Positions 3,966 through 23,003 of a DNA stretch of 64,000 bases are shown here, piece after piece. Each line of letters opens with the position of its first letter. Within the stretch, counting starts at the first letter, position 1. The stretch is from Candidatus Chloroploca mongolica (GTDB lineage Bacteria > Chloroflexota > Chloroflexia > Chloroflexales > Chloroflexaceae): contig NZ_SIJK02000002.1 in the NCBI RefSeq assembly GCF_004762035.2, forward strand, positions 1-64,000, in the 5' to 3' direction. The notes below the pieces were generated by a model. The model did not search any database. It worked only from the letters and a program-made list of their open reading frames with translations, and was not told the origin of the DNA. The translations under genes were made by a program, and so were the position numbers.

Positions 3966-4225
3966 CAATAAAAACGTAGAGCATAGAACGCAGAACATAA
4001 TCATTGCGATGGCCGCGATAGAATAGATCCTCCAGGTAGCGTGTGCCACCATGCTCCCTTGACCTTCCTTCCTTGGGGGGTTCAGAAGGTGATCACAATG
4101 AGAATCACCCTTGCTGAGCCACCGATGGTTGCGAATCGCTCACGCAAAATACAGGGTTTACGGGCTGACAGATGGCTTTTGCATGTGTTACGCTTCGCGT
4201 AGCTCAATACAAACGGAGGTGTGCC

Positions 4226-7200
4226 ATGCGTCGCTCCGCTGTCTGCTCTGCCATGCTGCTGCTCGTCTTGGTGCTAATCACGACGACGCTGATGAGCGTG
4301 CCCCAGGCTGCGGCCGCGCCGGACGAAGCCCCGGCGGCGGCGACGCTCCAGGCTGTCAGTTATGTTCAAGTTGCGGCTGGTGGAACTCATACCTGCGGCT
4401 TGAGCAGCGACGGTACGGTCTACTGCTGGGGCTCAAACTTGTACGGCCAGCTTGGTGACGGCACGACGACCAAGCAGCTGATACCGGTCGCAGTGGGTAG
4501 CTTGAGCGGCGTCATTGCGATTGCAGCGGGCTACTATCACACCTGTGCGCTGCTGGATGATGGAAGCGTGCGCTGTTGGGGCTGGAACCAACATGGACAA
4601 CTTGGCGATGGGACGACAACTGATCGACTGACACCAGTGGTCGTGGGTGGACTGCTCAATACAGTTACGCTTACGGCAGGCAACGCTTACACTTGTGCTC
4701 TGCTGACTGATGGCAGCGCTCGCTGCTGGGGCGCGAACTGGCAAGGTCAACTCGGTGATGGTAGCACGACGACCCGATTAACGCCGGTCGTGGTGAGCGG
4801 GCTGAGCGATGCACGTGCCATTGCGGCGGGCTACACCCACACCTGTGCACTGCTGAACAATGGCACGGCCCGTTGTTGGGGTGCAAACGAGAACGGTCAA
4901 CTTGGCGATGGTACGGCCATCAGGCGGTTGACGCCAGTCACGGTGAGTGGGTTAAGCAGTGCTATTGCGCTCGCCGTAGGTGGTGCTCATACCTGTGCGC
5001 TGCTGAACAACAATACAGTCCGCTGTTGGGGCAATAACGTGAACGGCCAACACCCGTCGTTGTGTATGGACTGAGCGGTGCGGTCGCGATCACCGCTGGT
5101 GCCGCGCACACCTGCGCCTTAATGAGCAATGGTACGGCCCGTTGCTGGGGGGCAAACGGGGAAGGGCAGCTTGGTGATAGTACTACTACTTATAGACGAA
5201 CACCGGTGGTAGTCAACGGGCTATCTGGTGCAGCCGCCCTTACGGCAGGTCGCTTGCATACCTGTGCATTGCTAGATAACGGCAGTGCCAATTGCTGGGG
5301 TCAGAATTACTACGGCCAACTTGGCGATGGCACAATGACCAACCGCCTCACTCCGGTGACCGTAAGTGGGCTGAGTGGTGTAGTTACCCTCGTAGCAGGC
5401 GATGATCATACGTGTGCATTGCTTGCCGACAGGGGTGCCCGCTGTTGGGGGAGTAACTATCACGGTCAGCTTGGTGATGGCACAACAACCGATTGGCTCA
5501 CACCGACGACAGTGAGTAGCTTGAGTGGCGTGGCTGCCCTTACCGCTCGTTCACATACTTGCGCCGTCCTGGACGATGGGAGCGCCCGTTGTTGGGGCAA
5601 TAACAACTTTGGTCAGATTGGCGACGGCACGGCTGGCTTTAGCTCCGTTCCGGTTGCTGTGGCGGAGCCTGTTGGGGATGGTGGTTCAACCTGCGCCCGC
5701 TTCGTCAGCGATGGCAACTACCCCGACGGCACGGTGGTCAATCCGGGGCAGGTCTTTGAGAAGCGTTGGCGGCTCCTGAATTGTGGCCCGGCGAGTTGGA
5801 ACGGCTACCAGGCCGAGCGCATCAGCGGCGACTATGGCCCAGCGACCTTCCCGGTCTCCGGCGCGGCCGGTGCGACGATTGATGTCTCAGCGACGTTCAC
5901 CGCACCGCTAACCCTGGGAACCTACCGTGCAACCTATAAGCTGCGGGGGCCACAGGGCCTCTTTGGCGATGCCTTCTGGGTTGAGGTGAGGGTGCGCCCT
6001 GGTCCCCTCCCGAATGCCACGGTGAGTGGGCGGGTCACCGCCGCTGATCGCGGTCTTGGCGGCGTGTTGATTACGGCATTCGGTTCACGGTTTGCCTTCA
6101 CGCTGAGTGCGGCTGATGGCAGCTATCGTTTTGCCGACATGCCAGCAGGCAACTATCAACTCACTGCGATGCGCCTGGGCTATGCTTTCGGCGCACCGAA
6201 GCTGGTGACCCTGCCGCCAGATGCGCAGGAACTTGATTTCGTGGGCCAAGCGATCACACCACCACCCTCACGGAAGATTGCCATTATGGTGCATGGTTGG
6301 CAAGGCTTCGAGACTGATCGCTCCAAGTACGATTGTCAGATCGAAAAGTTTGTCGGGCCATACCAGCGTGATCCGAGCGGCGAAAAAGCCGACGTGCCGG
6401 GCTGGGATCTGGTTGGACAGCAGCTCACCAAACTTGGCTATGAGGTCTACCTAGCAAACTGGACGACCAGTTTCTGGTACACGACCACCGCCGAAGACGC
6501 GGCGCGTGATTGCCTCGCGCCCCAAATTGCCTCAGTGGTCGGTGATGATAGTGACGGCAAAGTGTTGCTCGTCGCCCACTCGATGGGTGGATTGGTCAGT
6601 CGTGCCTACATCGAAAATGCCGATCGCTCCCAGCACCAGCCAGATGTCGAGGCGCTGATCACGCTGGGCACACCCCACGTAGGCGTCAATCTAAATACGC
6701 TGATCAAAATCGTTGGAATCTTGAACCCGAATACCCAACTTGCGACGGTTGCCATTTGTGTGGCAAATCCCGGCTTATGCCAGCTTGGCAGTGATGCGAT
6801 GTTGCTCTTTAACATCGCGCATACACCACGACATGATGTACCATACCTGTTTATGGGAGGATCGGGTGGCCCGGATTGGCTGGGATTTGTGAACTTTACA
6901 GAGGGACGGAACGACGGCATTGCTGGCTTTCGCAGCGCGACCGGCTACCAATATCAATATGCTTCCAGTATACCCTTCACCGGACGCCCGCTACACGATG
7001 ATTATCTGCTTGTTCAAGGTACCAATATTGTGCGCCGCTATAGCGATTCGTCTCATGGGGGCATTCCTTTCGTCAGTAAGCCGTGGTACGCTGATGATGT
7101 CAAGGTTAACGAGTGTGTCGCTTCCTATCTCGGCCATCGCTCATCCTTAGCCTGCAGCACCATGCGCGAACCCGTACTAAACGCAATGCCAGCCCAGGCG

Positions 7201-12200: not shown

Positions 12201-13412
12201 ATGATGGATCCCTGTTTTTTGAGAACTGATATGCGTATTCCGCAGCCAATTCACCCATTTCCCGCCCGTATGGCACCTTCAATCGTCCTGGAACACATTC
12301 AACAGTTACCCGCTGGTTCGGTTGTCCTTGATCCGATGATGGGTTCGGGTACCGTTGTGCGAGCAGCGTCTGATGCTGGTCATTACGCCATTGGAAGAGA
12401 TGTTGATCCCCTGGCGGTGCTGATGGCACGGGTATGGACAACCCCAGTTCATCCACAACATCTGCTGACGTTTGCCGAGGGTCTTGTTGAGTCAGCGCGT
12501 ATGTTGCGCGAAGAACACCTCTCACTGGCTTGGATTGACGAGGATGTTGAGACAAATCAATTTATTCAATTTTGGTTTGCGCCATCTCAATGCACCCAAT
12601 TACGACGCCTGGGCTGTCTATTGGCCGATATGCGTTGTTCTGAGGGAGATGCGCTACGTATTGCGCTGAGCCGAACTATTATTACAAAAAATCGTGGTGC
12701 ATCATTGGCACGCGACGTATCACATAGCCGTCCACATCGCGCATTTGAGCACAATACCTATGATGTGTATGATGGGTTTTTACGGGCTACGAGACACCTG
12801 GTAAAACGGTTTGAGCAAGAACCACCCCATGGCCAAGCCCAGATTGGCCTTGGTGATGCACGTCAACTCACCCTTGCTGACGGCTCAGTTGACGCAGTCA
12901 TCACCTCACCGCCATATCTCAATGCGATTGATTATTTACGCGGCCATCGCCTTGCGCTCGTATGGCTCGGCCATCGTGTTGGCAGCATTCGCTCCATTCG
13001 CTCAGGCAGCATCGGTGCTGAGCGTGCCCCAGACCCGCACGTAGACACAAAGCTTGCGGCTCGTGTCATACGGCACATGGGAATGACCAATCAGTTGCCA
13101 CCTCGTCAACACCGGATCTTCGAGCGCTATGTGCTTGACCTTGCAGCGATGATGGGTGAGATCCATCGCGTGTTGAAAGCCGGAGGCCGAGCGGTCTTTG
13201 TACTAGGCAACTCATGTGTGCAAGGTGTCTTTGTCCGCAATTCGGAAGCAGTTTTGATGTTGGCAAGAGAATCTGGTCTTGCGTTGATAGATCACTATGA
13301 TCGAGATCTCCCCGATGCTCGTCGCTATCTTCCGCCACCGACGGCTCATGCTGCATCGAGCATTGAGCGTCGTATGCGGAAGGAGGTTGTGCTCACTTTT
13401 GATCGTGCATGA
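12201..13412 (+). CDS. DNA methyltransferase (N4-cytosine / N6-adenine type)
   Basis: A 403-residue protein. Residues 44-51 (DPMMGSGT) form the SAM-binding motif and residues 235-239 (TSPPY, followed by LNAIDYLRGHR) form the amino-methyltransferase catalytic motif. HPFPARMAP near residue 19 is a family signature. It would transfer methyl groups to exocyclic amines in DNA, marking self. No restriction endonuclease is adjacent; instead the gene leads a run of co-directional genes for a nuclease, helicases and regulators, overlapping the next by ATGA. That suggests it provides self-marking for this island. Start 12201 gives MMDPC; ATG 12231 is an alternative and neither has a strong ribosome-binding site. 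Confidence 0.8.
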   Translation: MMDPCFLRTDMRIPQPIHPFPARMAPSIVLEHIQQLPAGSVVLDPMMGSGTVVRAASDAGHYAIGRDVDPLAVLMARVWTTPVHPQHLLTFAEGLVESARMLREEHLSLAWIDEDVETNQFIQFWFAPSQCTQLRRLGCLLADMRCSEGDALRIALSRTIITKNRGASLARDVSHSRPHRAFEHNTYDVYDGFLRATRHLVKRFEQEPPHGQAQIGLGDARQLTLADGSVDAVITSPPYLNAIDYLRGHRLALVWLGHRVGSIRSIRSGSIGAERAPDPHVDTKLAARVIRHMGMTNQLPPRQHRIFERYVLDLAAMMGEIHRVLKAGGRAVFVLGNSCVQGVFVRNSEAVLMLARESGLALIDHYDRDLPDARRYLPPPTAHAASSIERRMRKEVVLTFDRA

Positions 13413-14080
13413 TCTGGAACGTCTTGGTGGAGGGCATTGTGCCTGCATCTCGTCCCCCAACTGAAGCGATTGATCGCACGTACCAGCGCGTTCTTGCTGG
13501 CGAGCCTGATGCGCCCTCCGATTTGATCGAACTACTCCTTGAGCCACTCGTTGCCGCATTAAAGCACCGTTTCCCCAGCCTACCTGATCCCAACCTCGTC
13601 ATTGATACGGTCACCGACTCGCTCTTCCGCTTGGTTCAGGATCCCACGCGTTTTCATCCCGAGCGTGGTACGCTCTGGAGCTATCTTGTTATGGATGCCC
13701 TCGGTGACCTGCGAAATGCTTGGAAGAAAGAGCGTCGCCGTCTCAACCGTGAGCAAACGTTCGATCCTGTCGCACACGACCATCCAGATGGGAATAGTGA
13801 TGTAGAAGGATTGATCATACGCAAGCTGGTGCCCGATGGATTGCCTGAAGGCGCTGATGAAGCGGATCTCATTGCTCACCTGCGTGCCGCGATCACAAAT
13901 CCACAAGACTGGCAGGTTGTCCTCTTGATGATGGGGGGAGAGCGCAAGACGGAAGCCTTTGCGCGCGTCCTTGGCATCACTGATCGACCGCCTGCTGAGC
14001 AGCGGCGTCGTGTCAAGCAGGCCAAAGACCGGCTTCGGGTGATGCTGAAGCGGCGGGGAGCAACCTTCAATGAGCAGTAA
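13409..14080 (+). CDS. Sigma-factor-like protein (ECF region 2-like)
   Basis: A 223-residue protein whose residues about 35-110 (from LIELLLEPLVAALKHRF through GTLWSYLVMDALGDLRNAWKKERRR) look like sigma region 2 of ECF factors. The C-terminal 60 residues (TEAFARVLGITDRPPAEQRRRVKQAKDRLRVMLKRR) resemble region 4 with a helix-turn-helix. It could direct RNA polymerase to the island's own promoters. The ATG overlaps the methyltransferase stop (ATGA), and its own 3' end overlaps the next gene by 11 bp. Sigma-like genes paired with a small helical protein and an ImmA/IrrE peptidase suggest regulated proteolysis. A non-sigma regulator with the same fold is possible. Confidence 0.6.
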   Translation: MIWNVLVEGIVPASRPPTEAIDRTYQRVLAGEPDAPSDLIELLLEPLVAALKHRFPSLPDPNLVIDTVTDSLFRLVQDPTRFHPERGTLWSYLVMDALGDLRNAWKKERRRLNREQTFDPVAHDHPDGNSDVEGLIIRKLVPDGLPEGADEADLIAHLRAAITNPQDWQVVLLMMGGERKTEAFARVLGITDRPPAEQRRRVKQAKDRLRVMLKRRGATFNEQ

Positions 14081-14468
14081 CGTGTCGAATGCACTGGCGC
14101 GAGCAGCTCGCCGCGCTGAACAACAGCCCTTCTTTCTTGCCAGTGTACTCGCAGCATACCGGCAGGCCAATCGTCTCGATGATGCGGCGCTAGCGACCCT
14201 GCTTGATTGTCAGTTGGCTGATATGCTGCGCCTGGCCCTCTGTCGTCGGCCAGCTACTGAGCAGACCCAGTTCATGGCCGATGTTGATCAACTGGCGCAA
14301 CGCTTCAACCTCCGAGGCGACCAGTTGGCAATGATCATCAGGCAGGTTGATGCCCTCGCAGCCATCCAGCAACAGGTGCAGGTTGCGTATGATGGCATGG
14401 GCATGCTGCGCGCAGCACGCGACCATGAAGAACCTGCGGCAATCGATGAGGAGGGCCAACATGGTTGA
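14070..14468 (+). CDS. Small helical (HTH-like) protein, probable partner of the ImmA/IrrE peptidase
   Basis: A 132-residue all-helical protein. The segment RLDDAALATLLDCQLADMLRLALCRRP (about 34-60) looks like a divergent XRE helix-turn-helix, and another predicted helix pair lies at 75-100. Its start overlaps the sigma-like gene by 11 bp and its end overlaps the metallopeptidase gene by 8 bp, so all three are tightly coupled. XRE-type repressors are common substrates of ImmA/IrrE peptidases (the ImmR-ImmA pair is the model), so it may be a repressor or anti-sigma protein cleaved by the next gene product. That role is inferred from context. Confidence 0.5.
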   Translation: MSSNVSNALARAARRAEQQPFFLASVLAAYRQANRLDDAALATLLDCQLADMLRLALCRRPATEQTQFMADVDQLAQRFNLRGDQLAMIIRQVDALAAIQQQVQVAYDGMGMLRAARDHEEPAAIDEEGQHG

Positions 14469-15198
14469 ACCTTGGCTCGAACGTGCAGCAGAACAATTCT
14501 GGGAGGCTGTTGGCGAACCACTGGCGCTCCCACGCGATCTTGCTTCCGTGATCAGCCGTCCCTTTCCACTCGGCGTGATCACCCTTCCAGCGCTGGATAT
14601 GCTCAAGGTCGAAGGCTGGTTTGCCGAACGCAACGTACCCTACCGCTTTCTCTGCCAAAATCGCGCCCTGTGCGGCTGCATCGTGGCTGCACGGGGTCAT
14701 GGCTTGATCTTCATTGATCCCAATGATCCCCCTGCCGAGCAACGCTTTACCGTGGCGCATGAAGTGGCGCACTTTCTGCTCGATTATCTTGAGCCACGGC
14801 AGGAGGCCCTTGCACGGCTGGGCGAGTCGATCTTGCCAGTGCTGAATGGCGAGCGTGCGCCAACGACAGACGAACGTATTCATGCGCTCTTAGGGCGGGT
14901 CAAGCTCGGTTTCTATCAGGATATGATGCCACGAACTGCCTCCGGGAGTATTGATCAGACGGCCATCCTGCGTGCGGAGGATCGTGCCGACCGGCTTGCG
15001 CTCGAATTGCTTGCCCCCGCCACTCATGTGCTGGCTTCCGCAACAACCATTGCCAGCACGCCCTTTGAGCGAACACGAGCACTAACTGAACTATTGGAAC
15101 AGCAGTATGGTTTCCCACGCGCTGTAGCGCGTGCCTATGGTACCTCCCTTGTAAAACAGAGTTCCAAACCATCGTTGGCTGAGTGGTTTGGGATCTGA
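14461..15198 (+). CDS. ImmA/IrrE-family zinc metallopeptidase
   Basis: Start ATG 14461 gives 245 residues. Residues about 100-104 are HEVAH within FTVAHEVAHFLLDYLEP, the zinc-binding HExxH helix. A later ERADRLALELLAP stretch, here read EDRADRLALELLAP near residue 176, supplies the third acidic ligand. These motifs define the ImmA/IrrE (DUF955) family, whose members cut repressors after DNA damage or other signals. In this operon the likely substrate is the small HTH-like protein or the sigma-like protein just upstream. ATG 14461 was chosen over upstream in-frame starts because these would lie deep inside the previous gene. Confidence 0.85.
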   Translation: MVEPWLERAAEQFWEAVGEPLALPRDLASVISRPFPLGVITLPALDMLKVEGWFAERNVPYRFLCQNRALCGCIVAARGHGLIFIDPNDPPAEQRFTVAHEVAHFLLDYLEPRQEALARLGESILPVLNGERAPTTDERIHALLGRVKLGFYQDMMPRTASGSIDQTAILRAEDRADRLALELLAPATHVLASATTIASTPFERTRALTELLEQQYGFPRAVARAYGTSLVKQSSKPSLAEWFGI

Positions 15199-15361
15199 GT
15201 CGCACTTCGCTCATCGCTGCGGAACAAATGAGTGATCGGGATACAACGTAAATAAGGCTGAAGAGTCGTCTTCTAGACGAGTCGCACATTTGTAAGGATC
15301 GCGGAAGAAGAAGAAGAAGAAGCAACTTTGTACGACGAGCATGACTGCTCTGGAGGACGAA
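15199..15361 (+). other. Gap between the regulatory trio and the nurA/herA genes
   Basis: It contains a small hairpin (TCGTCT/AGACGA, 15268-15282) and a purine-rich GAAGAAGAAG tract before the next start. It may hold a second promoter for the nuclease half of the island, but no clear -35/-10 pair was found. Confidence 0.35.
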
Positions 15362-16585
15362 ATGGTACATACATCAGGGTCTGCGCCATATCAAATGAAT
15401 GAAAATGCTTTGGTTGTTGACGATGAAAGTTTTGCTGCTGCCTATGGTGAAGAGCTCAGTGCCACCCTTAATATTGATGCGTGGCAAACAGGAGGTGATC
15501 TCGAAGGCTTATATGAACGCATAGAGGCCGAAGTGACGAGTGGGATTGCGTTTGAGCAGGCTCAGCGCCCAACCATTCGGCGTGAACTCTTTCCCCGCTT
15601 GCGCACACGCCCGAACGCACCTGCTGCCGCTGGGTGTTACCGTGCGACCCTTGATGATCTGCGCCGCGTCCATCGCTCGCTCCTTTTCAATGGTGCGGTC
15701 GAGGCCTGTGATGGCACACGGGTCGAACATGACACCCTGCCAGTCACCATTACCCAGATCGGGGTGTGCCTGGTCTCGTACCAGGGTGATCAGGGTTCCT
15801 GGGCCCAGCGCCTCTACCGGCGCGATCTGCGTGCCAGTACTGGCAATGCGTTAGACGATCTGATGGCGCTGTTAGACAACCGTGGGCAACGTGGGAATAC
15901 CGATAACGATGAGCGCGGAAAACTCAGTGAATTGGCGCGTCGTGGCATTATGACCTATGCCGAACGCGCCATTTTGACCAAGAAGTCAACGGCCATCTGG
16001 AAGATGGGGCATGGCGATCCGACGCCCTATGATCTGCTCACTGGTTCGGGCAGTATGCAGTTGCTTGAGAAGAGTATGGAGATTTTGCGTGAATTGATCC
16101 TCCAGCACCGCAAAATCCTCTTTGTGCCCAGTGCCCCACGTGCGCGTGAGTGGATGACCCTTGGTCAGGCGCTTGACCCGCTCGAATACCTGATCATTGA
16201 CTCACATACCCAAAAGATGCTGCACGTTGTTGAGAGCAAGGACGGCGGACGGGGTGGTCATTACAGTAAAGAATATGCCCGTAAGGTTCGTGATTTCTGC
16301 TACGAGGTTGGGCCGCACATTTTGTTTGGAATCTATCGTACTTCAAGTGCGGCTCCGCCCCAGTTGTTCTTTGCCCATGCCGATTTTGTCCACGAGGCCG
16401 CACTGATCGCCATGGCTGATAGTGTCTTGCAAGAGCACCGGGGCTTCCCGATGCTGATCGATCTCGCCGATACGATCTGTCGGACGACCTTCGGTAACGA
16501 TATCTTCAACAATGTCGTTCAAATGGCGTATGCCCATGCTGGCGAGCCGTTCCGCTTCCTGAATGAGCGGATGACGCGGGCGTAG
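15362..16585 (+). CDS. nurA: NurA-domain nuclease
   Basis: ATG 15362 is preceded by GGAGG at five bases, better than ATG 15341. The product has 407 residues. An N-terminal segment with a metal-binding aspartate (VEACDGTRVEH) begins the NurA RNase-H-like core, and the ending PMLIDLADTICRTTFG...YAHAGEPFRFLNERM matches the C-terminal part of NurA domains. NurA is a 5'-3' single- and double-strand nuclease that works with the HerA hexameric translocase in DNA end processing. Here herA follows by 24 bp, so a NurA-HerA complex is very likely. The N-terminal 80 residues are not typical NurA and may link the complex to other island proteins. Confidence 0.75.
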   Translation: MVHTSGSAPYQMNENALVVDDESFAAAYGEELSATLNIDAWQTGGDLEGLYERIEAEVTSGIAFEQAQRPTIRRELFPRLRTRPNAPAAAGCYRATLDDLRRVHRSLLFNGAVEACDGTRVEHDTLPVTITQIGVCLVSYQGDQGSWAQRLYRRDLRASTGNALDDLMALLDNRGQRGNTDNDERGKLSELARRGIMTYAERAILTKKSTAIWKMGHGDPTPYDLLTGSGSMQLLEKSMEILRELILQHRKILFVPSAPRAREWMTLGQALDPLEYLIIDSHTQKMLHVVESKDGGRGGHYSKEYARKVRDFCYEVGPHILFGIYRTSSAAPPQLFFAHADFVHEAALIAMADSVLQEHRGFPMLIDLADTICRTTFGNDIFNNVVQMAYAHAGEPFRFLNERMTRA

Positions 16586-16609
16586 GCTTCTCGTAGAAAG
16601 GAAGTGTGG

Positions 16610-18520
16610 ATGAACCAGCTCAGCTTTGATGCGCTGAACGAGAACGGTGTTGCGACTGACAGCCATGGAGACGACATCTTCTCTGCTCCGCCTTCCGATG
16701 TCTTTCACTCAATTGATGCCGATGCTGAAGCGGCGGGCGGTGAGTGGAAAGAACCAGCGGCGTATGAAGGTTCGGTCGGACGCACGATGTTCGATACGCC
16801 TTCGAGCAAAGACAACAGCCTCATCGTGTTGCTGCCTCGCGAGAGCATGGAGTTGGTACCAGCGCAGTCGCTGGTGCGGATTATGAGTATTCAGGACGGG
16901 CGCTCTTACCTGGGTGTGGTCATTGAAGGACCTTTCGCAGAACCCGACGGGATCCGCGGTGATGCACCGATCGTGGTAACGACGACAGTCAAGGGTGGCA
17001 TCTTTATGCCGAAGTTTCACGGTCGCGTCCACGTAGAGTTGCTCGGCGAAGAGGTCAATGGGGTGCTGATGCCGCCGCGCTTCCGTCCCTTGCCAAACAG
17101 CCCGGTCTTTGCCCTTGATAGCGCAGAGACCGAGGCAGTTCTTAAAGTGCAGGGCGACATTCCGCTCGGGTTGGCGGTTGGCCACGAAGCGCTTCAGGTG
17201 AACATTCCTGCTGATCGCAAGTCGGTACTGCCGCGCCATCTCGGGATCCTTGGGACCACTGGTGGTGGTAAGTCTACGACTGTCTCGGGCCTGATCAACA
17301 GCTTCCAAAAGGCTGGCATTGCCACGGTACTGATCGACACCGAAGGTGAGTACACGATGATCAACGAAGAGACGACTGACAAGAACATGAAAGCTGCGCT
17401 CGAACGGCGAGATTTCAAGCCAGAGGGTGTACAGCGCACCCATCTGTATCATCTGTTTGGGCGTGAAACAACCAATCCACAGCATCGCCCCCGAACCACC
17501 TTCTGCCTACGGTTTGAGCGGCTCTCCCCCTATCTTGTTATGGAACTCTTGGAACTAAGTAGTGCCCAAGAGGAACGCTACTTGCGGGCCTATGATGTGA
17601 CCAAACGGGTCCTTCAAGATCTCAAGATTTCTCCTCAACAGGGTGAAGACACGGAACAGTTCGTTGAGCTTGATGAGATGGAGGAGGGCTATCCGCGCAT
17701 GACCCTCGCCCACATCTACGATGTTATCGCCGCTTGCGCTCAATTGGTTGACAAAGCCGAAGACGGCATTGATTTCTATGCCAATGGTTTTCGTGAACGA
17801 AAAGATCAGGTTCTTCCTGCGATCAAGAAAGCAATTGGTGCTAGTAGTGGAGCAAGTAGCAAGAAGGCTGAAGGCTCGCTGCCCGGTAATGCGATCAGTT
17901 GGCGTGCGCTTCAGGGCAAGCTTGGCCGGATTCGCCGCTTGAAGATCTTCGATAACCCTGAGGCGAACCCCCTTGACTACACGCAACTCACGACACCGGG
18001 CCAGGTCTCAATCATTGACCTCAGCGATACCGACTCGCCCCGGATCAATAACCTCGTGATCGCCGAGATCCTGCGCGGCATCCAGCAGCAGCAGGATGAG
18101 AACTATACCCAGGCCGAGAAGTCGCGCCAAGAACCAGGCCGCACGATGGTTGTCATTGAGGAAGCCCACGAGTTTCTTTCGGCAGAGCGGATCAAACAAA
18201 TGCCCGTCCTCTTTCAGCAGGTCGCCCGGATCGCCCGCCGTGGGCGTAAACGCTGGCTTGGGCTCGCTTTTGTTACACAATTGCCGCAGCACTTGCCCGA
18301 TGAGGTATTGGGCCTGATCAACAACTTTATCCTGCACAAGATCTCCGATGCCGGTGTGATCAGCCGCCTCAAGCGTTCGATCGGCGGCATTGATGAGGGG
18401 CTCTGGTCACGGCTGCCAAGCCTGGCTCCTGGTCAGGCCATCGTCTCGATGACGAGTATGGCACGACCACTCCTGGTTGCGATTGACCCAACACCGTGCA
18501 AGCTGAGAATGGTAGATTAA
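16610..18520 (+). CDS. herA: HerA-like ATPase / DNA translocase
   Basis: ATG 16610 is preferred over GTG 16604 because AGGAAG lies upstream at a suitable distance; 636 residues. An N-terminal acidic region is followed by a HAS-barrel-like beta segment, then Walker A GTTGGGKST (about residues 216-224), a DTEGEYT segment typical of HerA, and Walker B VVIEEAHEFLS (about 514-524). An arginine-rich ARRGRKRWLGLAFVTQ stretch follows, as in FtsK/HerA proteins. A helical insert sits in the centre. It would form a hexamer that pumps DNA into NurA. HerA-coupled nucleases occur both in archaeal-type repair and in anti-phage systems; the neighbouring genes favour the second here. Confidence 0.88.
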   Translation: MNQLSFDALNENGVATDSHGDDIFSAPPSDVFHSIDADAEAAGGEWKEPAAYEGSVGRTMFDTPSSKDNSLIVLLPRESMELVPAQSLVRIMSIQDGRSYLGVVIEGPFAEPDGIRGDAPIVVTTTVKGGIFMPKFHGRVHVELLGEEVNGVLMPPRFRPLPNSPVFALDSAETEAVLKVQGDIPLGLAVGHEALQVNIPADRKSVLPRHLGILGTTGGGKSTTVSGLINSFQKAGIATVLIDTEGEYTMINEETTDKNMKAALERRDFKPEGVQRTHLYHLFGRETTNPQHRPRTTFCLRFERLSPYLVMELLELSSAQEERYLRAYDVTKRVLQDLKISPQQGEDTEQFVELDEMEEGYPRMTLAHIYDVIAACAQLVDKAEDGIDFYANGFRERKDQVLPAIKKAIGASSGASSKKAEGSLPGNAISWRALQGKLGRIRRLKIFDNPEANPLDYTQLTTPGQVSIIDLSDTDSPRINNLVIAEILRGIQQQQDENYTQAEKSRQEPGRTMVVIEEAHEFLSAERIKQMPVLFQQVARIARRGRKRWLGLAFVTQLPQHLPDEVLGLINNFILHKISDAGVISRLKRSIGGIDEGLWSRLPSLAPGQAIVSMTSMARPLLVAIDPTPCKLRMVD

Positions 18521-18522
18521 CC

Positions 18523-21117
18523 ATGAATGACGATTCACAAGCTCATAGGTTATCGTTAGCTACCGTCACCATCACCACTGATGGGGCAACTCGCAGCGAC
18601 CCTGGGCCAGGAGGCTGGGCCGCGCTGCTGGAATATGGCACCCATGAACGGCTGATTGATGGCGAGGAGCCCACGGAGACGACCACCAAGGTGATGGAAC
18701 TGGTTGCGGTTGCTGCTGCGTTGGAAGCGCTGAAACGTCCTTGTCATGTGGTGCTGCGGTGCGACTCAACCTATGTTCGCGATGGTCTCATATGCTTGCT
18801 TGATGGTGGCGCACTCCCCAGGACGAACCGTGCGGTCTGGGAGCGGCTGAGCGCCGCCATCGGACGGCATACGCTGGAGCTTGGCTCGGTGAAGGGTCGT
18901 ACCGGTGATCAGCGTTATGAGCGCGTCGATGCGGCTGCGCATGCGGCGGCTAACCGGGCGTATGCGCACGTCGCAGCACAGTATGGCAGCAACATCGGTG
19001 ACGATACCTTCACTCATGCCCTGGCTCTCCTGCGCACGGCGCTCGCTTGTCCACAAGCCGAATTTCGGCCGGGGCAGTGGGAGGCTATCGAGCAACTTGT
19101 CGTTCATCGCGCCCGCCTGCTCGTTGTTGAGCGAACCGGCTGGGGCAAGAGCCTTGTCTACTTCATGGCTACCCGGCTGCTCCGCGAGCGCGGGGCCGGG
19201 CCGACTCTGCTTATCTCGCCGCTGCTGGCGCTTATGCGCAACCAGATCCTTGCCGCAGACCGGCTTGGTGTGCGAGCCGAGACGGTTAACTCCACCAACA
19301 AAGATGATTGGGATCAGGTGCTTGCACGGCTCCACGCCAACCAGATCGACGTGCTGCTGATCTCGCCCGAGCGACTCGCGGACGAGACCTTCCGTGAACG
19401 CTACCTGCTGCCGATTGCCGCCAGCATTGGTCTCTTTGTCGTCGACGAGGCCCACTGCATTTCGGATTGGGGACATGACTTTCGCCCTGATTACCGGCGC
19501 ATCGTGCGCATCCTCCAGGCGCTCCCAAGCACGATCCCTGTCGTCGCCACAACCGCAACCGCCAACGAGCGTGTCGTGCGCGATGTGGTCGAACAGCTCG
19601 GTACTGAAGTACAGGTCATCCGTGGGCCGTTAATCAGAACGAGCCTCTCGCTCCAGAACATTCATCTGCCCAGTCAGGCGACCCGGTTGGCCTGGCTCGC
19701 CGAGCACTTACCGCAGATGCCAGGGAACGGCATTATCTATGCGCTCACGAGGAAGGACACCGAGCATATTGCCGCGTGGCTGCAGATGCAGGGTATTGCG
19801 GCTGAGGCGTATCACGCAGACGTGGAGAACGATCGCCGCGTGACACTCGAAGCGCAGTTGCTCGACAATCAACTGAAGGCGTTGGTGGCAACATCGTCCT
19901 TGGGGATGGGTTTCGACAAGCCCGACATGGGCTTCGTTATCCACTTTCATCGCCCCGGCTCGGTCGTCCACTACTACCAGCAGGTTGGCCGCGCCGGGCG
20001 TGCGATCGAGCACGCCTATGGGATCATGTTGAGCGGTGACGACGATGATGAGATCCTAGACTACTTCATCGCTACGGCGTTCGAACCCGAGGAGCACATC
20101 GCTGCTGTGCTGGCACAGCTCGAAGCGACCGATCACGGATTGAAAATCAAAGAGCTTGAGCAAGGCCTGAATCTGCGACGGTCACATATTAAGCATATAC
20201 TCAAGCTCCTTTCGGTCGAGACCCCTTCGCCGGTGAGTGAGCAGCACGACGGCTGGCATCTCAACCCGATCAACTATGTCCCCAACCAGGAGCGGATTCA
20301 GCGAATTATTCGCCAGCGACGCGAAGAGCAACAGCGGATGTATGCGTACCTTCATACCCACGAGTGTCTGATGCGCTTCTTGGGGCGCGAGTTGGACGAT
20401 CCCGCTGTGTCCAAGTGCGGCCGCTGTGCGAGTTGTGTTGGGCAACCACTTCTGCCCACTTCCCACTCGGTGTCCCTGGCTACTCAGGCCGAAGACTTTT
20501 TGCGGCACCTCAACCAGCGCATCGAGCCACGCAAGCAGTGGCCCGGCGAGGCATTGGTTGTGCCACATGGCTGGAAGGGTAACATTCCAGTCCATTTTCA
20601 GGCGGAGGAGGGTCGCACCCTCTGTCTTTGGGGTGATACGGGCTGGGGGGAGCTCGTCCGCAAGGGTAAGCAGCGTGATGGGAGGTTCGCCGACGAATTG
20701 GTTCAGGGCGCCGCTGAGCTAATCACGCAGCGCTGGCACCCAGATCCAATGCCAACCTGGGTCACGTGCGTCCCGTCGCAGCGCCACCCTACCCTGGTCG
20801 CTGACTTCGCCCAACGGCTGGCTCAGGTGCTCCGCTTGCCGTTCGTCCCCGTGGTGCGGCGCATTCGCCCGACCGAGTCACAGAAATTGATGCGCAACAG
20901 CTACCAGCAGGCGCACAACCTCGCAGGCGCATTCACCATTGATGCCTGGTCACATCTTGCCAAGCCGGTGCTCCTGGTCGACGATATCGTTGATTCAGGC
21001 TGGACGTTCACCATTCTTGCAGCGCTGCTGCGCGAAGCTGGCAGCGGATCGGTTTATCCCTTCGCGCTTGCCCAGGTGCTTGCCGATGACGATGAACGTA
21101 GGCCATCGCCAGGATAG
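18523..21117 (+). CDS. RNase HI :: RecQ helicase :: phosphoribosyltransferase fusion
   Basis: An 864-residue three-part protein starting two bases after the herA stop; GTG 18496 is an alternative. Residues about 10-150 are an RNase HI domain with all four catalytic acidic residues visible (TTDGA, MELVAV, RCDSTYV, ERVDAAAHAA). Residues about 180-640 are a RecQ-type SF2 helicase: Walker A TGWGKS, motif II DEAHCISDWGHDFRPDYRRI, TATA, motif VI QQVGRAGR, and a cysteine cluster CGRCASC. Residues about 690-850 are a ComF-like phosphoribosyltransferase with the PRPP-loop motif LLVDDIVDSGWT. RNase H removes RNA from hybrids and RecQ unwinds; the PRTase may sense or modify nucleotides or DNA. The fusion suggests processing of RNA-DNA hybrids, or of invading DNA during transcription or replication. 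Confidence 0.85.
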   Translation: MNDDSQAHRLSLATVTITTDGATRSDPGPGGWAALLEYGTHERLIDGEEPTETTTKVMELVAVAAALEALKRPCHVVLRCDSTYVRDGLICLLDGGALPRTNRAVWERLSAAIGRHTLELGSVKGRTGDQRYERVDAAAHAAANRAYAHVAAQYGSNIGDDTFTHALALLRTALACPQAEFRPGQWEAIEQLVVHRARLLVVERTGWGKSLVYFMATRLLRERGAGPTLLISPLLALMRNQILAADRLGVRAETVNSTNKDDWDQVLARLHANQIDVLLISPERLADETFRERYLLPIAASIGLFVVDEAHCISDWGHDFRPDYRRIVRILQALPSTIPVVATTATANERVVRDVVEQLGTEVQVIRGPLIRTSLSLQNIHLPSQATRLAWLAEHLPQMPGNGIIYALTRKDTEHIAAWLQMQGIAAEAYHADVENDRRVTLEAQLLDNQLKALVATSSLGMGFDKPDMGFVIHFHRPGSVVHYYQQVGRAGRAIEHAYGIMLSGDDDDEILDYFIATAFEPEEHIAAVLAQLEATDHGLKIKELEQGLNLRRSHIKHILKLLSVETPSPVSEQHDGWHLNPINYVPNQERIQRIIRQRREEQQRMYAYLHTHECLMRFLGRELDDPAVSKCGRCASCVGQPLLPTSHSVSLATQAEDFLRHLNQRIEPRKQWPGEALVVPHGWKGNIPVHFQAEEGRTLCLWGDTGWGELVRKGKQRDGRFADELVQGAAELITQRWHPDPMPTWVTCVPSQRHPTLVADFAQRLAQVLRLPFVPVVRRIRPTESQKLMRNSYQQAHNLAGAFTIDAWSHLAKPVLLVDDIVDSGWTFTILAALLREAGSGSVYPFALAQVLADDDERRPSPG

Positions 21118-21154: not shown

Positions 21155-21205
21155 ATGAAGCGCAGAACGGTTTGTGATGCGAGGAGAGTTTACCACAATG
21201 ACTAG
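21155..21205 (+). CDS. 16-residue leader peptide / upstream ORF of the dprA-like gene
   Basis: ATG 21155 has the strongest Shine-Dalgarno in the region (GGAAGGGAGG at 21141-21150), yet the frame encodes only MKRRTVCDARRVYHND and stops at 21205. It ends eight bases inside the dprA-like gene, whose ATG is at 21198. The peptide is short, basic and resembles nothing known. It probably tunes translation of the downstream gene by coupling rather than acting as a protein. Confidence 0.45.
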   Translation: MKRRTVCDARRVYHND

Positions 21206-22634
21206 TCATGTGCTCACACCCGATACGCAGGCCATCCTGCTCCTCTGTGGCAGTCTTGGCCAGTCGCGTGCGCGTGAGGCACCCCTCACCCAGGGTGAGT
21301 ACAACCAGGTTGCGCAGTGGCTGCAGCGCGAGCAGCTACGTCCGGCCGATTTGCTCCAACCTGAGGGACTTAACCGTGTGCAGGCGGCTGGCGCAACATT
21401 GCCCCTGGGACGTCGTGTCGAAGGCCTGGTCTCGCGGGGGGGCGCACTCGCGCTGGCCGTCGAGTCCTGGACGAATAAGGGGCTCTGGATCATCAGCCGG
21501 AGCGACCCGGACTATCCCCGTGCCTTGCGCAGCCGCCTGGGGAGGCAGGCACCACCGATCCTCTACGGTGTCGGCGAGCGCCTCCTACTCGAGCAAGGCG
21601 GTCTCGCGATTGTCGGCTCACGCGACGCCGACGAGGGTGGGCTTGACTTCGCCCGCTCGGCTGCGCTGGCCTGTAGCAGGCAAGGGGTTCCGGTCATCTC
21701 AGGTGGAGCCCGTGGCGTGGACAGCACTGCGATGGATGCCGCCATCGAGTCCGAGGGCGTTGTTATCGGCGTCCTGGCCGATAGCTTGGCACGTGCTGCG
21801 GTCACACGGAAATATCGCACCGCGATCCGAGAGGGCCTGCTGGTCTTCGTTTCCCCCTTTGATCCTGACGCTGGGTTCAACACAGGCAATGCGATGAATC
21901 GGAACAAGGCGATCTACGCCCTCAGCGATCTCGCCCTCGTGGTGAGTGCTACGTTAGAGAAGGGCGGTACATGGAACGGTGCGACTGAAAACCTTAAGCA
22001 CGGATGGGTGCCGCTCTTCGTGCGCAACGAAACGCCGCAGCTCGCGGGCAATCGCCGCCTCATCGAGCTTGGGGGGTACAGCGTCGATCGCGGCGTGCTT
22101 GACCGTCGGGTAAGCGTCGACGATTGGCTCGACGGACGGGAGCTTGCAAGCAATATGGGTCTCCCCCTCCAGCCTACCATGGCGATATCAGAAGCCGTAC
22201 CGATACAGACCGAGGAGGATGCCGCACTGAACACCCAGAGCTTAGCAGAACTGCCTGCGGTTGCCGAGGGCTTCCCTGCAACAAACATTGAGGCAGAATC
22301 TTCGCTCACATCGTCTGAAATCGCTGAGGCAACCTCTCAGTTGGTCGAGAAACTGAAGCAACAGCCAGTTGTCACGAATGGAGACGAGTACGATCTCTTT
22401 GGGATCGTGTGGCCCTACCTCAAGCAAGCCCTCGCAACACCCCGGACTGACCGTGAGGTGGCTGAACTGTTCCAGCTCGAGCTGAAGCAGGCCCAGACAT
22501 GGCTCCGCCGTGCTATCGAACAGGGAAGCCTGAAAAAGTTACAAAAGCCTGTCCGATATGTCGCGACAAATTCCACCTTGCAGCCACTACCACTATTTGA
22601 CCAAAATGACTATCAAGGGAATGCTGCAAGCTGA
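21198..22634 (+). CDS. DprA/Smf-like DNA-processing protein with winged-helix end
   Basis: ATG 21198 is chosen for its GAGGAGAG site; 478 residues. After an N-terminal helical region, residues about 130-290 form the DprA Rossmann-like fold: ILYGVGE, VGSRDADEGG, ISGGARGVDSTAMDAA, and NAMNRNKAIYALSD, which supplies the nucleotide/DNA-binding loops. Residues about 410-470 (REVAELFQLELKQAQTWLRRAIEQGSLKKL) look like a winged helix. Classical DprA loads RecA on incoming single-stranded DNA in transformation. No competence genes are nearby, so here it more likely binds or senses single-stranded DNA for the RecQ/NurA/HerA machinery. Fused or adjacent DprA and PRTase domains support a shared nucleotide-linked mechanism (inference). 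Confidence 0.8.
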   Translation: MTSHVLTPDTQAILLLCGSLGQSRAREAPLTQGEYNQVAQWLQREQLRPADLLQPEGLNRVQAAGATLPLGRRVEGLVSRGGALALAVESWTNKGLWIISRSDPDYPRALRSRLGRQAPPILYGVGERLLLEQGGLAIVGSRDADEGGLDFARSAALACSRQGVPVISGGARGVDSTAMDAAIESEGVVIGVLADSLARAAVTRKYRTAIREGLLVFVSPFDPDAGFNTGNAMNRNKAIYALSDLALVVSATLEKGGTWNGATENLKHGWVPLFVRNETPQLAGNRRLIELGGYSVDRGVLDRRVSVDDWLDGRELASNMGLPLQPTMAISEAVPIQTEEDAALNTQSLAELPAVAEGFPATNIEAESSLTSSEIAEATSQLVEKLKQQPVVTNGDEYDLFGIVWPYLKQALATPRTDREVAELFQLELKQAQTWLRRAIEQGSLKKLQKPVRYVATNSTLQPLPLFDQNDYQGNAAS

Positions 22635-22646
22635 AAAGGAACGCCC

Positions 22647-23003
22647 ATGCAACAGTGGGATGTCGATGTGCAGCGCCGAACGCTTGTGTATGCAAACAAG
22701 ATCCTTGATGTGGTGGATAGATTGCCCAATGCACGATCGGCCTCCATTCTTGCGAATCAGTTGGGGCGCTCAGCGACGTCAGTGATGGCGAATCACGCCG
22801 AAAGCACGCGGGCACGAAGTGTTGCCGAGAAGATCGCGAAGCAGGGCCTCTGTCTGCAAGAGTTGCAAGAGTCTCACGCCTGGCTTGCGCTGCTCAAGCT
22901 GCGCACGTATTGTGATGTTGAAAGCTGTGACGAACTCCTGAAAGAAACCGATGAACTGATCGGTCTCTTTGTCGCCAGCATCAAGCGCTTCGCAAACCAG
23001 TGA
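22647..23003 (+). CDS. Four-helix-bundle protein (S23 / IVP family)
   Basis: A 118-residue all-alpha protein starting at ATG 22647 with an AAGGAA site. It shows the family pattern: RRTLVYANKILDVVDRLPN, then a SAATSVMANHAESTRA helix, EKIAKQGLCLQELQESHAWLALL, and a C-terminal ELLKETDELIGLFVASIKR. The family occurs in 23S rRNA intervening sequences and as free-standing genes, and the accessory Avd of diversity-generating retroelements is related; no reverse transcriptase is present here. It follows the dprA-like gene by 12 bp, so it could be a basic, nucleic-acid-binding subunit of the island. Its last 54 bp are duplicated just downstream. Confidence 0.75.
   Translation: MQQWDVDVQRRTLVYANKILDVVDRLPNARSASILANQLGRSATSVMANHAESTRARSVAEKIAKQGLCLQELQESHAWLALLKLRTYCDVESCDELLKETDELIGLFVASIKRFANQ

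Follow-up and report, generated by a model that had tools for sequence, protein, structure and literature searches.

What would a gene do that appears to join an RNase H, a RecQ-like helicase and a phosphoribosyltransferase (PRTase) in a single chain? A preliminary description of the window (here, the entire 64,000-nt stretch of Candidatus Chloroploca mongolica DNA that we analysed) read these three parts into one intact 864-residue frame, followed by a DprA-like gene, and proposed a nucleotide-coupled response to R-loops or invading DNA. Translation of the window bears out the frame, which is open throughout on the plus strand, with 864 codons and no stop. The features of the locus are as follows.

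16604..18520, plus strand: HerA-like ATPase, directly upstream of the fusion gene with a 2-nt gap; final member of a separate, conserved cassette
18523..21117, plus strand: RNase H-PsyrT fusion gene, 864 aa (translation and profile matches)
18559..18963, plus strand: RNase HI-like domain, approximately residues 13-147; D20, E59, D81 and D136 kept; N16D, N44T, N45K, H124R and N130Y (E. coli numbering)
18964..19002, plus strand: linker/junction, residues 148-160; ATC at codon 158, against ATG in the relative G013, in place of the native PsyrT start
19003..20052, plus strand: RecQ-like helicase core of PsyrT, with Walker A K209, DEAH at 308-311 and QQVGRAGRA
20365..20436, plus strand: cysteine cluster C615, C632, C635 and C638, resembling the RecQ zinc site in sequence
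20752..21075, plus strand: C-terminal PRTase domain, with the PRPP loop VDDIVDSGWT at 20977-21006
21174..22634, plus strand: PsyrA/RqlI-type DprA-family partner, 486 aa from a GTG; a later start is possible

In Pfam profile searches of the fusion protein, RNase_H covers residues 15-143 (1.4e-18), DEAD residues 182-354 and Helicase_C residues 393-494. The third domain is recovered weakly: Pribosyltran scores 18 bits, below its own cut-off of 26.3 bits, and the TIGR00201 ComF model matches at 8.6e-6. The motifs that had been pointed out are all present, namely, the four RNase HI acidic residues, the RecQ motifs GWGKS (including K209) and DEAH, and the PRPP loop at residues 819-828, and the next gene indeed belongs to the DprA family (Pfam, 1.3e-35).

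Assignment to the PsyrTA/RqlHI system

The PADLOC model of PsyrT covers residues 165-855 of the fusion protein almost end to end (model positions 7-687 of 689; E 1.4e-290), which places the PRTase region within a known architecture, and the PsyrA model matches the downstream gene (E 1.4e-129). Because the two profiles match both genes, the RecQ-PRTase-DprA part can be assigned, by sequence, to the known PsyrTA/RqlHI toxin-antitoxin system. Conservation of individual positions is in line with this assignment: the fusion protein keeps 148 of the 153 PsyrT columns whose conservation reaches 95% or more across 99 full-length relatives, and its partner keeps 41 of 42 conserved positions. The RqlH residues mutated in published work, K49, D148 and D663, have K209, D308 and D824 as their counterparts here; the offset is constant at 160-161 and equals the size of the added N-terminal part. 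The PRTase acids D820, D821 and D824 are all kept, the last of these being invariant in the alignment of relatives (A2).

The sequence features that define PsyrTA/RqlHI, that is, intact helicase core motifs, a C-terminal PRTase with a PRPP loop (DIVD) and a DprA-family gene directly downstream on the same strand, are all found here. The helicase is RecQ-like in the broad sense (TIGR00614, 249.6 bits, above the cut-off) but not a canonical RecQ (TIGR01389, 293.5 bits against a cut-off of 640.2), and the PRTase falls short of the competence protein ComFC (TIGR00201, 25.8 bits against 233.55). The toxin usually starts with the helicase, a trait that does not define the system, whereas here 160 extra residues precede it; this trait is not universal among PsyrT proteins, given that the protein at locus L076 has a long N-terminal fusion of another kind. 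The novelty of the three-part chain thus shrinks to the RNase H addition, the other two parts and the DprA gene being already described as a system.

Published work on the E. coli pair shows that RqlH combines a RecQ-like helicase with a PRTase domain and binds its DprA-like partner, RqlI. On its own, RqlH induces the SOS response, filamentation and a growth arrest that requires the PRTase pocket, where D663 is needed for toxicity. In one study of PsyrTA in a native host, protection was not seen under the conditions used, so that anti-phage activity is not universal.

The fusion junction

The nearest PsyrT relatives, from the same family (G013, 83% identical, and G035, 68%), lack the RNase H part and begin at the position that corresponds to residue 158 of the window protein. 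The DNA resembles that of G013 (81% similarity) from codon 161 onwards, and the start region reads ATG-GCG-CAT-GAC-ACC in G013 and ATC-GGT-GAC-GAT-ACC in the window. Codons 141-214 of the window gene include no in-frame ATG, GTG or TTG; the first of these after the join is codon 215, beyond the ATP-binding lysine, so translation can yield a PsyrT that includes the ATP site only in fused form. With only a 17% difference between its PsyrT part and that of G013, the fusion is likely to be fairly recent. At its other end, the fusion frame begins 2 nt past the stop codon of the HerA-like gene, a gap that suggests that the two genes are probably co-transcribed.

The join sits at the PsyrT start of an unfused relative, with the start codon lost, and on this ground the fusion looks genuine. 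An assembly or sequencing artefact joining two genes appears very improbable, because the error would have to hit the right frame and the exact native start codon and, in addition, alter the ATG itself, and would have to do so without a stop or frameshift within a contig of 230,914 bases. What could be said in its favour is that the fusion occurs in one genome only and that a second assembly was not found.

Search for further fusions

We searched for further fusions in 158 genomes of the class, 400 genomes of the phylum, 80 contig loci, plasmids, phages and viral contigs, and none turned up. None of the 99 full-length PsyrT genes carries an RNase H domain. Matches were found in 38 genomes of the 400-genome phylum sample, and only in the window's own genome does the match start from residue 1, the other 37 lacking the N-terminal part. 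Among the plasmid and phage records, 130 and 24, respectively, contain a match, and none of these covers 80% of the query; some are ordinary RecQ helicases, which makes these counts looser than the 99-gene set. No similar RNase H gene was detected near PsyrT in the loci covered (for the set of contig loci, up to 6 kb on either side, less at contig ends), and a literature search yielded no paper on RNase H together with RecQ and PRTase. The RNase H extension of PsyrT is thus unique so far.

Three long frames were considered as further fusions and dismissed. In G438, the 313-residue N-terminal stretch is unlike any window protein and has the look of read-through. The frame in G167 consists of an MFS-like gene running in frame into PsyrT, and the two are overlapping genes in G290. 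The L076 protein is not the same fusion, its N-terminal part being of a different, helicase-RQC-HRDC type. This frame (L076:754-6411, Gemmatimonadota; 1885 aa) combines an SF1 helicase (AAA_11/AAA_12), RQC, HRDC and HTH_40 domains with PsyrT, and is followed by PsyrA.

Origin and state of the RNase H-like domain

A tree built from 31 RNase H domains places the window domain in a seven-member clade (support 100/100), together with stand-alone RNases H of the same order. Its branch is long (0.87), either because a donor outside the sample had diverged earlier or because the domain changed quickly once fused. One member of this clade, in G016 (locus L028), shares 4 nt with the SF1 helicase gene that follows it, so pairing with a helicase is not foreign to these RNases H. 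The same locus (L028:2399-7088) encodes the RNase H, the overlapping SF1 helicase and a UvrD-like helicase, possibly, a three-gene operon.

The domain matches the type 1 RNase H profile and keeps all four DEDD acids (D10, E48, D70 and D134 in E. coli numbering), in contrast to the hybrid-binding asparagines and H124, which are missing. Among the 18 columns that are invariant in the other 30 RNases H, the window domain breaks five, those of the replacements listed above, whereas each comparison row breaks at most two of its own invariant set. Positions 16, 44, 45 and 124 are N, N, N and H in all 29 relatives and in E. coli, against D, T, K and R in the window. Matched by the offsets of the DEDD residues, N16, N44 and N45 correspond to human N151, N182 and Q183, which have been named as hybrid-binding residues of the catalytic domain (PMC7657459). 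H124 aids catalysis, and E. coli RNase H becomes substantially less active with the H124A replacement; the histidine is absent from some type 1 RNases H, and the B. halodurans enzyme uses a glutamate (PMC8900815).

Given the loss of these asparagines and of the catalytic histidine, it seems unlikely that the domain efficiently cleaves hybrids in the canonical manner. The suggestion that the chain cuts RNA in hybrids is accordingly weakened and now doubtful, although the four acids on which it was based are in place and, all being present, make some RNase H activity possible. Housekeeping probably does not require this domain, since a second RNase H1, on another contig of the same genome, has a much higher profile score (138 bits against 72). 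The loss of invariant residues with no stop or frameshift would, in this single fused example, fit a change of use and early decay alike.

Genomic neighbourhood

Upstream of the fusion gene lies a cassette (12201-18520) that encodes a methyltransferase, a sigma70-region-2-like protein, a small protein, an M78/IrrE-type peptidase, an unknown 414-aa protein with no Pfam, PADLOC or solved-structure match, and the HerA-like ATPase. Copies of this cassette are found in about 20 further genomes from the phylum and in a viral contig (L130-L135, L186, L230-L243), and the order sigma, small protein, peptidase, unknown protein, HerA is well preserved. The genes past HerA vary: PsyrTA in the window; CRISPR-Cas in four copies (L234-L237); and, in others, a TmtA-like and a UvrD-like gene, a sigma-like gene with a Druantia/MrfA-like helicase, a nuclease-helicase or nothing obvious. 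We therefore rejected PsyrTA as an integral part of the cassette: because other copies precede other systems, PsyrTA appears to be a neighbour of the HerA cassette within a defence island.

The gene at 15341-16585 was considered as a NurA nuclease partner of HerA and rejected, since it has no Pfam match and a profile comparison with 15 NurA proteins gave none either. In one copy of the cassette (L242:1058-4160, in G223), a gene for a 572-aa RecQ-like helicase occupies the usual place of the sigma, small protein and peptidase genes. Elsewhere in the window, a four-helix-bundle protein of the 23S rRNA intervening-sequence type (TIGR02436) is encoded at 22647-23003, 12 nt downstream of PsyrA, and an RCC1-repeat protein (Pfam RCC1, 2e-47) at 4172-5074, upstream of the island.

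Proposed mode of action and alternatives

We conclude, with a probability of about 80%, that the fusion is a PsyrTA/RqlHI toxin to which an RNase H-like N-terminal domain was added by in-frame gene fusion, and that this domain probably lacks efficient RNase H activity. By extension from the published RqlHI work, PsyrA would bind PsyrT and restrain its PRTase, and the helicase would travel 3'-5' along DNA that is single-stranded or damaged, for example that of a replicating invader. Once DNA damage or invader replication relieved the control by PsyrA, the PRTase would act with PRPP on DNA or nucleotides, and the resulting DNA damage signalling and growth arrest would halt the multiplication of the invader. 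The RNase H domain, probably derived from the stand-alone clade of the same order, could now provide an extra nucleic-acid contact or be a passenger, tolerated as the carrier of the ribosome start. In these terms, two elements of the preliminary proposal can be retained: a response to invading DNA is plausible because the RecQ-PRTase and DprA pair is PsyrTA/RqlHI, and nucleotide-coupled action is reasonable in view of the published mutants, in which the counterpart of D824 is needed for toxicity.

Two alternatives concern only the RNase H domain; both are compatible with the PsyrTA assignment, and their probabilities need not sum to one with it. The domain might be an active RNase H, cutting the RNA of R-loops or of primed DNA in cooperation with the helicase. 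The four acids, the RNase_H profile match and the intact frame would favour such activity, but replacement of five residues that are invariant in 30 other RNases H makes it doubtful. Nor do the retained acids prove selection: three of them are among the 18 invariant columns, and if 5 of the 18 were lost at random, all three would be kept with a probability of about 0.35. The domain could also be decaying, retained only as the carrier of the PsyrT ribosome start and frame in the HerA operon. This option has to be taken seriously, even if we hold it somewhat short of even odds. The native PsyrT start is gone and no other usable start exists, the HerA stop lies 2 nt ahead of the fusion ATG, and the branch is long, with conserved residues lost; against this stand 160 codons without a stop or frameshift and the retained acids, and decay and altered function look alike in one example. 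Taken together, the sequence comparisons suggest that an accessory nucleic-acid contact or a passenger is more likely than an active nuclease, in other words, a PRTase toxin with an appended domain that has been repurposed or is decaying. A more specific variant, in which the altered domain would read unusual nucleic acids (primed forks, hybrids or replication intermediates) and thereby set helicase loading and firing of the PRTase toxin, making it a new trigger module of PsyrTA, is improbable.

The gene pair could, alternatively, encode a DNA repair or competence enzyme of the ComF/DprA type rather than a defence toxin. The similarities to DprA and ComF point in this direction, as do links to transformation raised by the authors of the RqlHI work and the common occurrence of RqlH without RqlI among Gram-positive bacteria. 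However, the best full-length match is to the PsyrT/PsyrA pair, both members of which adjoin here, and the locus lies in a defence island, so that we consider such a role unlikely. We read the locus as a known toxin-antitoxin/defence system whose RNase H extension is probably weakened in catalysis. A toxin to which nature has added a nucleic-acid domain provides a handle on what triggers PsyrTA/RqlHI, and this case cautions that four catalytic acids alone do not prove an RNase H domain active.

Comparison with known systems

PsyrTA of Pseudomonas syringae likewise consists of a helicase-PRTase toxin and a DprA-family antitoxin in the same order and on the same strand, with full-length profile matches, and the window toxin differs in the RNase H-like domain of 160 residues that precedes its helicase. 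The E. coli F11 pair RqlHI, whose RqlH also occurs in Mycobacterium smegmatis, has the same architecture, with the equivalent lysine and aspartates and a DprA-like RqlI downstream; unlike the window protein, RqlH starts with the helicase. ShosTA also combines a PRTase toxin with a DprA-family partner, and the window proteins match ShosT weakly and ShosA moderately, but the ShosT model has 237 positions, the size of a PRTase, to which the window toxin adds the helicase and RNase H. The RNases H encoded as stand-alone proteins in the same order (G016, G040, G045, G057 and G069) are 51-59% identical to the window domain and share with it a short loop where E. coli has the basic protrusion; they differ in keeping N16, N44, N45, H124 and N130, in being separate genes and, for most, in having a second half (RVT_3-like in two). 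In WRN, an exonuclease is joined to a RecQ helicase; the nuclease is a DnaQ-type exonuclease, and there is no PRTase. WRN thus offers, as an idea for cooperation, a nuclease of RNase H-like fold in front of a RecQ helicase, in an arrangement that is not homologous to that of the window protein.
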